Assembly (NCBI GenBank): GCA_016765495.1
Contig: JAESPV010000025.1
Location: 141,021-205,020, forward strand
DNA length: 64,000 nt
Origin: Desulfocapsa sp.
Lineage (GTDB): Bacteria > Desulfobacterota > Desulfobulbia > Desulfobulbales > Desulfocapsaceae
Direction: 5' to 3'
The position numbers and the translations under genes are program-made. The first letter of the stretch is position 1; each line of letters begins with the position of its first letter. Below the pieces are notes generated by a model. The model did no database searches, had not been told where the DNA came from, and worked only from the letters and a program-made list of their open reading frames with translations. This document shows positions 36,201 through 42,130 of this stretch, piece after piece.

Positions 36201-36353
36201 GTAAATCCGGATATTGAAGTCATTTTCAATGAGTAGGTTTCAAAAACTTTCCACAAAAACGATTATTCTTCACAAGGATCTTACATAGCGTGACATGAAA
36301 TTATACCTGTTGTTGCTGGTATATTGAACAGACATATAGCTGCCAAGCTCAAG

Positions 36354-37022
36354 ATGAGTGAAAATATGGTAAAAACACATCGTTTCAGAAATCTTCTTTT
36401 TTTTCTGCTCTTATACATTGTAGGAAGTCCTTTCCTGGAACCGTATCCATCTCTTACTGTTCTTGCCCACGTATCACTGTCTATGACGTTTGTTGTCGCA
36501 GTGCATGCTATCACAAAAGTAAAGAATCAACACTCCATTGGCTCCATCCTGCTTGTGCCTCTCCTCATCTTGTATTGGCTGGGGTTCTTTGATGCACTCG
36601 CTTTTAGTCGCATTGGTGCACAGCTGCTTGCCACCATTTTTTACGCGCTGCTTATCTACACGTTCACGCTCCAGATTAAAAGGGCTCGCAAGGTCACCAG
36701 CAAAGAACTCTACGCTACTTTCTGTCTTTACCTTATTATTGGGCTTTTCTGGGGTTCACTTTACACCCTGTTATATTCTGTGGATCCGGGTGCGTATAGC
36801 GGTGCCCTTCTAGAGAGTACCAATAATACATCGCATACATTTAATTATTTCAGTTTGGTCACTCTAACAACCCTTGGTTACGGTGACATTACCCCTCAAA
36901 CTGCCGGAGCCGCGGCTCTTTGTCAAATGGAGGCAATTTTCGGTCAATTTTTTACGGCAGTTGTTGTTGCATGGCTGGTGGGAATGTTTGTCTCCAACAG
37001 ACAAGAGAGAAATCATAAATAA
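36354..37022 (+). CDS. ion channel family (potassium-type) membrane protein
   Basis: Selectivity-filter motif TTLGYGDITP and surrounding TM segments. Confidence 0.85.
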   Translation: MSENMVKTHRFRNLLFFLLLYIVGSPFLEPYPSLTVLAHVSLSMTFVVAVHAITKVKNQHSIGSILLVPLLILYWLGFFDALAFSRIGAQLLATIFYALLIYTFTLQIKRARKVTSKELYATFCLYLIIGLFWGSLYTLLYSVDPGAYSGALLESTNNTSHTFNYFSLVTLTTLGYGDITPQTAGAAALCQMEAIFGQFFTAVVVAWLVGMFVSNRQERNHK

Positions 37023-38391: not shown

Positions 38392-39549
38392 ATGAATCTT
38401 ATTTATCTTTGCCCTCAGTTCCCACCCAATTACGTTCCTTTTTGCAACTGCCTTAAGGAACTGGGAGTAAATGTTCTTGGTATCGGAGACGGGACTCCAG
38501 AGTCCTTGACTCCAGAAGTGCAGAATTCACTGACCGCCTACTATATGGTTGATGATCTTCATAATTACGAGTCTCTCCTGAAAGCTTGTGGTCATTTCAC
38601 CCACCAGTACGGCAAAATAGACCGCCTTGAATCCCATAATGAATATTGGCTGGCCACCGATGCCAAGCTTCGTCAGGATTTTAACATCAAAGGCCTGAAA
38701 CCCGCTGATATGCTGTTTATTCGTCGTAAATCAGGGATGAAGGAGGTCTTTCGGAAGGCCGGTATCAAGGTCGCACCCGGTAAGGTTATTCACACCCTAT
38801 CCGAGGCAAAAGAAGTCATCAAGGAGGTGGGCTACCCTGTTGTTGCCAAGCCGGACGATGGGGTTGGTGCTCTCGACACCTTCAAGATCCACGACGAGGA
38901 GGAACTTCTCTCCTTTGTTGAGAATAAACCGAAGCACGATTATATAATGGAAGGTTTTGTCAAGGGTACTATTTTCTCCTTTGATGGCCTGACAAACCGA
39001 GACGGCAAGATCATCTTCTGTACTGCCCACACTTATAGCCAGGGGATCATGGAAGTAGTGAACAACGCAGACCATCTTTATTATTATTCACTTAAAAGTA
39101 TCCCCAGGGAGCTCGAAGAGTTGGGCCGCAAAGCTGTTTCCGCCTTTGAGATCCAAGAGAGATTTTTTCATATCGAATTCTTCAAAACGGGCTCGACCGA
39201 CTATGTAGCCCTGGAAGTCAATATGCGGCCACCGGGTGGATACACCACCGACATGTTCAACTATGCCAATGATATCGATGTTTATGCTCTATGGGCCGAA
39301 GTTATTAATGGCCGAACCACCCCTCTGGAGTATGAGAGGAAATACCATTGTTGCTACGTAAGCCGCAAGAACCGTTTTAACTATGTCTACAGCCATCAGG
39401 CAATCATGGAGCGCTATGGCTCCAGTATTCTGGAGGTTCAATCAGTACCGGGCGTCTTCAGCGCAGCCCTAGGCGATATCGGTTATATCTTCCGGACTGA
39501 ACATGAGCAGGATATCATAGAAATAACCTCCTTTATCCAAAAGCTGTAA
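38392..39549 (+). CDS. ATP-grasp family ligase of unknown substrate
   Basis: GYPVVAKPDDGVGALDTFKI ATP-grasp region; EVNMRPPGGYTTDMFNYAND. Confidence 0.85.
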   Translation: MNLIYLCPQFPPNYVPFCNCLKELGVNVLGIGDGTPESLTPEVQNSLTAYYMVDDLHNYESLLKACGHFTHQYGKIDRLESHNEYWLATDAKLRQDFNIKGLKPADMLFIRRKSGMKEVFRKAGIKVAPGKVIHTLSEAKEVIKEVGYPVVAKPDDGVGALDTFKIHDEEELLSFVENKPKHDYIMEGFVKGTIFSFDGLTNRDGKIIFCTAHTYSQGIMEVVNNADHLYYYSLKSIPRELEELGRKAVSAFEIQERFFHIEFFKTGSTDYVALEVNMRPPGGYTTDMFNYANDIDVYALWAEVINGRTTPLEYERKYHCCYVSRKNRFNYVYSHQAIMERYGSSILEVQSVPGVFSAALGDIGYIFRTEHEQDIIEITSFIQKL

Positions 39550-39732
39550 AATGGTAGAGCAGAATGGACATCCTTGATGTGATTCCATAATTTCTAACTA
39601 GATTGAGAAGCAACTCCGGCAGGCATACCAACAGTCATAGCATAAAAGAGAACTCCATAACCGATCCGGCTGCCTTATCATCACAGAACCTTGTTGTTTG
39701 TCCTGCCCTGTCAATGGGTACAGAATATTTGC

Positions 39733-39927
39733 TCAGTGCAACCTGGACAGAAAAATAGTGCATGCAATTGCCATGATGTACCAAAGGAAAAGCTTAGACG
39801 TGGAAAGGATGCGCTCCATTTTCCCCTGATCATTTGAACAACATCCGACGCCTTCATCCTCCCAACTACTACTGTCTTCCGGCGTTATCAGCCAGAAAAT
39901 ATTTTTCTCTTTACTTTGATGCTTCAT
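39733..39927 (-). CDS. small membrane protein, divergent from chimeric regulator
   Basis: MKHQSKEKNIFWLITPEDSSSWEDEGVGCCSNDQGKMERILSTSKLFLWYIMAIACTIFLSRLH; strong AAGGAGG upstream; C-terminal TM. Confidence 0.4.
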   Translation of the reverse strand: MKHQSKEKNIFWLITPEDSSSWEDEGVGCCSNDQGKMERILSTSKLFLWYIMAIACTIFLSRLH

Positions 39928-40075
39928 CATTCCTCCTTCCTCTCTCGCTGCTTAATACAGCCTTGCAAACTCTTTTCTTTTTTCTTTGCATCATTATAAC
40001 CGAGGTGGTAAACAAGGACAGATACAGAACAGAAGAAAAACAACCAGTACAGAAATAGATGGCAAGGATGGCAAC

Positions 40076-42130
40076 ATGGAATATCAATATTTAAAAATAG
40101 CCAACAAGCTGGAACAACAGATTTTGGCTGGAGAATACCTGGCAGGGGATAAACTTCCTTCTCTGCGAAAACTGAGGGCTTCCACAGGTCGATCCATGTC
40201 CACAGTATATCAAGCCTATGAAGAACTGGAGAACCGGGGCCTGGTTGAGGTAAGAGAAAAATCCGGGTTCTTTGCCCGACCTCTTTTAAACGATATTCTC
40301 CCCCTGCCAAAGCAGGGTGTATCGCAAATAAAGTCACATAAGGTGGCCATAAACGTCCTGTCCTCCATGATGCAACGTTCCCTCACCAATCCGGATCTTA
40401 TTCCTTTTGGTGAAGCAGCCCTTGCCACCTCTCTTTTACCGGGAAAACAAATGTCAGCGGCTGTACGTTCTGCTGCAGCAGGATATCAGGATGGAAGTTG
40501 CAGCGGTTACGGAGCACCGTCTGGATACGAAAAATTGAAAAAAGAGATCAGCAAACGTTCCCTTGGCCTCTCTCATAGAGGCATTACCAGCGAAATTATT
40601 ATTACTCGGGGGTGCATGAACGGGATTGAACTCTGCTTGCGCAGTGTGGCACGTCCAGGCGATACCATCCTTTTGGAGTCCCCCACTTTTCTCTGTTATC
40701 TCCAACTGATTGAAGATCTCAACATGCAGGCTCTGGAAATCCCGGCAGACCCGATCTCCGGTCTGGATACCAACAAACTAAAGTCCACCCTGGATGAGCA
40801 TGACATTCGTGCAGCACTTTTTATACCCACATTCCAAAATCCCCTCGGATTCGATATGGGCGAAGCTGCCAAAGAAGAACTGGTCTCTCTGTTCACCGAG
40901 CGTGGGGTTCCCATTATTGAAGACAATATCTATAGCAATCTCTATTTTGGAGAACATAAATCCCTTCCTTTAAAACATTTTGATAGTCAGGGAATGGTGC
41001 TTCACTGCAATTCTTTCTCCAAAGATCTCATGCCCGACATGCGAATCGGTTGGCTCCTCGCAGGAAAGTATCGAGAAAAAGTGAAACGACTTCAATTCAA
41101 TAACAGCCTGGCAAATTCCCAGTTGATGCAGCATGCATTGGCGCTGTTTCTGGAGACTGGCGGATACGAAAGGCACCTTAGAAAGCTCCGTAACAGCCTG
41201 CGACGACAGGCAGCTGATATGAGTCAATCCATTGGGCGTCATTTTCCTGCAGAGACTAGAATATCATCCCCCAAAGGAGGTTTGACCCTCTGGGTTGAGT
41301 TACCGGACAGCGTAGACAGCCTTAAGCTCTTTCGTCTGGCAGAAAAAGAAAATATTTCCATATTACCGGGCACCCTCTGTTCAGGCACCGGTCAGTACGA
41401 TCACTGTATCCGTTTATGTTACGGCCACCCATGGGATGATAAACTGGAAAAGGGCATGGCAACACTTGGCGGTCTGGTACAATCTCTGGTCAAGAAAGAG
41501 CAGAAGATCAGCAACAAATCGAGCACAAATGAAATCGTCATCGGCCTGAACAGCGATCCTGAAATCCTCAAAATTGAAGACATTATTCGTAATTTCAATC
41601 AGCAGGACAGTGGCTCAACACTTCGATTTCACCAGTCTATTTCCGGCAACATCCTCAAACTCATTGCAAGTAATGAGTTGCACGGTGGTTTTGTTTTTGG
41701 CGAATGCGACGATGACAGGTTTGTGGTTCAACATCTGGTCACCTATTACCTCAAGATTGTAGGACCAATCCAAATGGCAGATAAAATTGCAGATGCAGAA
41801 TACCGGGATCTGGCAGAACTCCCCTGGATAGGAAATCCCTCGGAATGCCCTTATTGCCAATTAATGGAAGATATATTCTCTGAACGTGGTTTTCGCCCCA
41901 AAATTGTCATGTTTGCCAGTGACGAGTCTGCTATTCTCACCATGATAAAAGCTGGTGTGGGCTTAAATTTTATGCTTGAAGATCAGGCCGAAATATTGGC
42001 TGGAGAAGGTCGCCTGGTGACATGGGAACGGGAAAGATTTACATTTCCATTATCATTTGTCACTTTGGAAAGTGCTCAGAATAATGAACAGGTACAGACA
42101 GTTAGAAAAGTGATTGAAAGGATTTGGTGA
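40076..42130 (+). CDS. MocR-type transcriptional regulator (GntR HTH + aminotransferase) fused to a LysR-type substrate-binding domain
   Basis: LPSLRKLRASTGRSMSTVYQAYEELENRGLVEVREKSGFFAR (GntR wHTH); AAT domain; residues about 505-684 LRFHQSISGNILKLIASNELHGGFVFGE...CPYCQLMEDIFSERGFRPKIVMFASDESAILTMIKAGVGLNFM (LysR effector domain). Confidence 0.88.
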   Translation: MEYQYLKIANKLEQQILAGEYLAGDKLPSLRKLRASTGRSMSTVYQAYEELENRGLVEVREKSGFFARPLLNDILPLPKQGVSQIKSHKVAINVLSSMMQRSLTNPDLIPFGEAALATSLLPGKQMSAAVRSAAAGYQDGSCSGYGAPSGYEKLKKEISKRSLGLSHRGITSEIIITRGCMNGIELCLRSVARPGDTILLESPTFLCYLQLIEDLNMQALEIPADPISGLDTNKLKSTLDEHDIRAALFIPTFQNPLGFDMGEAAKEELVSLFTERGVPIIEDNIYSNLYFGEHKSLPLKHFDSQGMVLHCNSFSKDLMPDMRIGWLLAGKYREKVKRLQFNNSLANSQLMQHALALFLETGGYERHLRKLRNSLRRQAADMSQSIGRHFPAETRISSPKGGLTLWVELPDSVDSLKLFRLAEKENISILPGTLCSGTGQYDHCIRLCYGHPWDDKLEKGMATLGGLVQSLVKKEQKISNKSSTNEIVIGLNSDPEILKIEDIIRNFNQQDSGSTLRFHQSISGNILKLIASNELHGGFVFGECDDDRFVVQHLVTYYLKIVGPIQMADKIADAEYRDLAELPWIGNPSECPYCQLMEDIFSERGFRPKIVMFASDESAILTMIKAGVGLNFMLEDQAEILAGEGRLVTWERERFTFPLSFVTLESAQNNEQVQTVRKVIERIW

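Follow-up and report, generated by a model that had tools for sequence, protein, structure and literature searches.

MocR regulators are described as two-domain transcription factors whose sensing part is a PLP-binding fold. The window analyzed here, a 64,000-nucleotide stretch of a Desulfocapsa sp. contig to which all coordinates without a genome or locus label refer, contains a gene (40076..42130, + strand) that raises the question of whether such a regulator could have gained a second, unrelated effector domain. Its open reading frame starts with ATG, has no internal stop and encodes 684 aa. Pfam searches identified three domains, all encoded on the + strand and all with matches far above curated cut-offs: a GntR winged helix-turn-helix (HTH) domain (aa 5-66, 40088..40273, PF00392, E=1.1e-15), a fold-type I aminotransferase-like domain (aa 126-452, 40451..41431, PF00155 (Aminotran_1_2), E=1.7e-25), whose PDB relatives include GabR and aminotransferases, and a LysR-type effector (substrate-binding) domain (aa 485-680, 41528..42115, PF03466 (LysR_substrate), E=3.6e-22). 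The last match was near-complete (profile positions 6-204 of 209), and when the C-terminus was searched in isolation against Pfam, LysR_substrate was the only family detected (E 2.3e-23). A phmmer search of the C-terminus against PDB gave weak matches only, the best of which (E 0.016) was to a CysB-like activator. The aminotransferase-like and LysR domains are separated by a linker that is poorly conserved in the alignment (aa 473-484, 41492..41527, + strand), and no LysR HTH (PF00126) was detected by Pfam, either between these two domains or elsewhere in the protein.

In terms of family membership, the fusion protein has the GntR winged HTH and the fold-type I domain of MocR regulators but not their two-domain ending, and it has the effector domain of LysR-type regulators but not their N-terminal LysR HTH. 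A preliminary description of this DNA had proposed the order of GntR, aminotransferase-fold and LysR effector domains, with a LysR_substrate fold in the C-terminal region. The Pfam results bear this out, the domain order being also supported by the conservation and purifying selection described below, and the residue ranges that had been given for the three domains were roughly correct when compared with Pfam boundaries. That description had not recognized the architecture from earlier work, and a literature search of open-access papers found no earlier report of a GntR-aminotransferase-LysR architecture. An AlphaFold model of the whole protein, based on a 5-sequence alignment, was uninformative on domain packing (pLDDT 39, pTM 0.27).

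MpaR of Pseudomonas aeruginosa, a member of the MocR subfamily, has the same layout of HTH and aminotransferase-like domains and is 39% identical to the fusion protein over aa 4-472; however, MpaR ends at 471 aa and has no LysR domain. Lys314 and Tyr284, which are needed for MpaR function (PMC10790758), correspond to Lys316 and Tyr286 of the fusion protein. Lys316 (codon at 41021..41023, + strand) is the predicted Schiff-base lysine for PLP and is invariant in 16 fused proteins. The full set of PLP-site residues that marks MocR proteins (N255, D283, Y286, K316, R323 and R446) is likewise invariant in the fused set and matched in MpaR. MpaR controls ccoN4 in response to cyanide, whereas no such neighbors were seen at the fusion locus. 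The likeness to PdxR and GabR includes the GntR and fold-type I domains, the PLP-site residues and the direct-repeat style of the operator, whereas about 200 additional C-terminal residues distinguish the fusion protein from both. It could not be assigned as PdxR, since its score against NCBIfam NF052282 was 248.9 bits and the cut-off is 320 bits, and it was also below the cut-offs of other NCBIfam MocR families. Two-domain MocR orthologs were found in sister genera and in other families (45-58% identity). They end at approximately 472 aa, consistent with the earlier statement that MocR regulators normally stop after the aminotransferase-like domain.

MocR operators commonly contain direct repeats (PMC5320631), and repeated boxes were also found in the control region of the fusion gene. 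An element composed of ACAGATNCAGA, 20 bp and ACAG is located upstream of fused and most unfused orthologs. In the window, it constitutes the predicted operator ACAGATACAGA-N20-ACAG (40018..40052, + strand), which ends 23 bp before the start codon and has its pair of ACAG boxes at a spacing of exactly 31 bp, or about three helical turns. ACAG-N27-ACAG was present within 200 bp of the start at 33 of 37 orthologous loci, compared with 0.05 expected from shuffles, while the exact form of the operator was absent or relaxed at several two-domain orthologs. The exact full operator occurs only once in the host genome. With the exception of G007, where the operator upstream of the fusion gene has one mismatch, the other fusion genomes tested also had one exact copy each, invariably in front of the fusion gene. 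A search allowing one mismatch yielded few extra matches, near the level of the reversed-pattern control in most genomes. The motif that MpaR requires, ATCTGAT (PMC10790758), resembles ATCTGT on the other strand of the operator. Because the operator is common to fused and most unfused orthologs, DNA reading appears to be unchanged, and these comparisons suggest that the added LysR domain left the target DNA sequence as it was. In G035, operator-like sites were observed at C1:6494699-6494733 and 6512831-6512865, far from the two-domain ortholog gene of that genome.

A promoter scan of the intergenic region detected no sigma-70 site, and nothing was found in the upstream region by a terminator scan or Rfam. 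A separate observation is that a stretch of about 300 bp (39690-40010), which lies between the start of a lost gene and the operator, is conserved, in that its blocks can be aligned across the genus. It has no Rfam match and is possibly a long 5' leader.

The closest free relatives of the fused LysR domain are ordinary LysR regulators of approximately 300 aa from the same order, with effector domains up to 39-41% identical. Usually, such a gene and one of the isochorismatase family are arranged head-to-head, and the latter is often followed by a PEBP-family gene. These regulators carry the N-terminal LysR HTH (PF00126), whereas the fusion protein has the GntR HTH instead. Thirty positions are invariant in both the fused and the nearest stand-alone LysR domains; among them are GLN, the SG of the QSISG loop, and the PWIG and PY of PWIG..CPY. 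This shared set makes it likely that the fused domain retains a ligand site. Since conservation extends to the PLP-site residues and to many positions of the effector domain, we infer dual-input sensing, and the most likely role that can be predicted from the sequence is that of a dual-input local regulator.

We consider it probable that this gene encodes a lineage-specific MocR transcription factor which was joined once to a LysR effector domain from the same bacteria and thereby gained a second sensor. The protein appears to function in the manner of a MocR regulator that carries an additional LysR-type sensor, and it falls outside the two-domain definition of the former and the HTH-based definition of the latter. 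In the mechanism we propose, a two-domain MocR protein would have been joined in a single event, via a short variable linker, to a LysR-type effector domain; the product would act as a MocR-type dimer that carries PLP at Lys316; bound to the repeats spaced 31 bp apart in the control region of its gene, this dimer would regulate its own gene and, where present, a divergent gene. Through a change in the geometry of the dimer or tetramer, the LysR domain may provide a second input, either a small molecule or redox. In this clade, the operator format stayed the same when a second effector domain was added, and unfused relatives of both halves occur in sister genomes. The evolution of multi-input regulation could thus be directly tested by deleting one domain or exchanging it, and the fusion may offer a natural model for building two-signal sensors.

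LysR effector domains dimerize, and LysR regulators are commonly tetramers. It is conceivable, though rather unlikely, that the fused domain is an oligomerization module only, which brings MocR dimers together into tetramers on a multi-box operator and binds no ligand. This general behavior of LysR proteins would fit such a role, as would the control regions of the fusion loci, where an additional inverted CTG[G/T]TA-like box is found upstream besides the two direct boxes. However, the positions that remain invariant across fused and free domains argue against oligomerization as the only function, and the 31-bp box pair is also used by most two-domain orthologs, which have no LysR domain.

Another explanation, which we regard as somewhat improbable, is that Cys591 and Cys594 make the LysR domain a sensor of thiol redox state or reactive sulfur in a sulfur-metabolizing anaerobe. 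These residues form a CPYC motif (41846..41857, + strand) that is present in 16 of 16 fused proteins and in none of 15 stand-alone relatives, all 15 of which lack Cys594. Cys591 was aligned with the peroxidatic Cys199 of E. coli OxyR by both MAFFT and hhalign, and Cys544 is likewise invariant in the fused set. On the other hand, the second cysteine of the fused domain is at +3, whereas that of OxyR is at +9 (Cys208, which aligns with Ile600), and the fusion protein is not LysR-type by its HTH. Moreover, nearly all unfused relatives also have Cys591, which therefore may be structural, and the fused LysR domains have 54 invariant positions, so that conservation alone is weak evidence for a thiol sensor. 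In view of the cysteine pattern, a thiol input through the LysR domain is possible. It is also conceivable, but doubtful, that one dedicated operator is under the joint control of the PLP sensor and a LysR-type sensor whose CPYC thiol switch was newly acquired, the MocR protein having captured the LysR effector domain and taken over a class of target genes that is still run by LysR regulators in relatives.

With regard to the preferred reading, a MocR regulator that gained a LysR-type sensor, the distribution and conservation of the gene were also analyzed. It is single-copy in the host genome. Homologs of the same length, aligned over the full query (1-684) and 52-83% identical, were found in 15 further genomes, including eight of the host genus, one of another genus of the same family and six of a second family of the order. 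The three Pfam families were matched by all 16 full-length fused proteins, and three more fusion matches, in G018, G023 and G119, run off contig ends. Outside the order, genomes sampled from the host phylum did not show this architecture. A search of another phylum via G637 gave no match at E 1e-60, which is a weak negative as other phyla were thinly sampled. Nor was the architecture found among plasmid-borne MocR matches, which were present in 1,954 records (2,871 places), none of them covering at least 80% of the query.

The LysR domain is under purifying selection, with dN/dS of 0.07-0.09 where dS was not saturated, whereas the linker evolves fast (dN of 0.40-0.88 for aa 473-486 versus 0.13-0.24 in the LysR domain). 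It is very unlikely that the fused domain plays no part in regulation and is carried along as a passenger: its C-terminal place behind a variable linker would be compatible with this, but the low dN/dS, the retention of full length in 16 genomes of two families and the 54 invariant positions argue otherwise. An assembly or frameshift artifact that fused separate MocR and LysR genes, which the preliminary description had named as a possible source of error, is ruled out by the identical junction in 16 separately assembled genomes, one of them (G022, 4.0 Mb) with only two contigs, so that neither chance nor a two-gene join explains it, and by the lack of a LysR HTH between the domains.

In phylogenetic trees, the fused effector domains formed one clade (support 97/95 and 99/98), and in the first tree its sister was the clade of LysR regulators whose genes mostly lie divergent from an isochorismatase-family gene. 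This position beside a LysR clade of the same bacteria points to one fusion event as the most likely origin. The tree of the MocR core gave a three-way split among two fused groups and the two-domain g6/g8 group. Such a split would also accommodate a later loss or a second fusion event, either of which is possible; a single fusion with possible later loss is the simplest reading, and not a proof. LysR regulators of the isochorismatase-associated type were found in G010, G021 and G024, which belong to the host genus and have no fusion, and in the second family. None of the sampled genomes of the host genus has both the fusion and this regulator, and several genomes of the second family carry both. 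An unfused LysR regulator beside a methyltransferase-like gene was also considered as the direct domain donor, but this is not supported, its identity to the fused domain being only 22-28%. In genus g32, a MocR match with one internal stop codon ends at aa 478 (G125:C6:20857-22293), a possible case of LysR-domain loss.

In most fusion genomes, the regulator gene is head-to-head with a small, fast-evolving, methyltransferase-like gene. By Pfam, the conserved core of this gene (YCRMLLKPGG...G.RP) is weakly similar to class I SAM methyltransferases, namely to their C-terminal half. This partner gene was detected in 19 of 251 genomes of the order, and nearly all strong matches adjoin the fusion; adjacency was observed in 16 genomes, including contig-end cases and one disrupted copy. 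In G124, the gene is near a contig end, and the copies in G021 and G152 have an ordinary LysR regulator as their neighbor in place of the fusion. The latter arrangement, with the two genes head-to-head, was observed at L147:5422-7292 and L148:440-2286. G000, G006 and G008 lack the partner or have it in decayed form, with a remnant kept in G006 and a permease-like gene in its place in G008. No copy of the partner gene was found in the host genome, where a remnant (39598..39681, - strand) has a start codon and 27 codons followed by a stop. This remnant aligns with the copies of relatives, its start codon and the intergenic DNA included. As the divergent gene is decayed in the host genome, only self-regulation can be predicted there.

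Several close relatives also carry the 39598-39681 remnant (- strand). An ATP-grasp protein gene (38392-39549, + strand) lies immediately upstream of the regulator, a place where it was not found in relatives. At loci L060-L064 (family f6, genus g32), genes for an AraC-type regulator and a LysE/RhtB-type exporter lie downstream of the fusion gene and have its orientation. Elsewhere in the window, a gene (36324-37022, + strand) whose product is a small membrane protein containing a potassium-channel filter (GYGD) adjoins a sodium/hydrogen exchanger gene.
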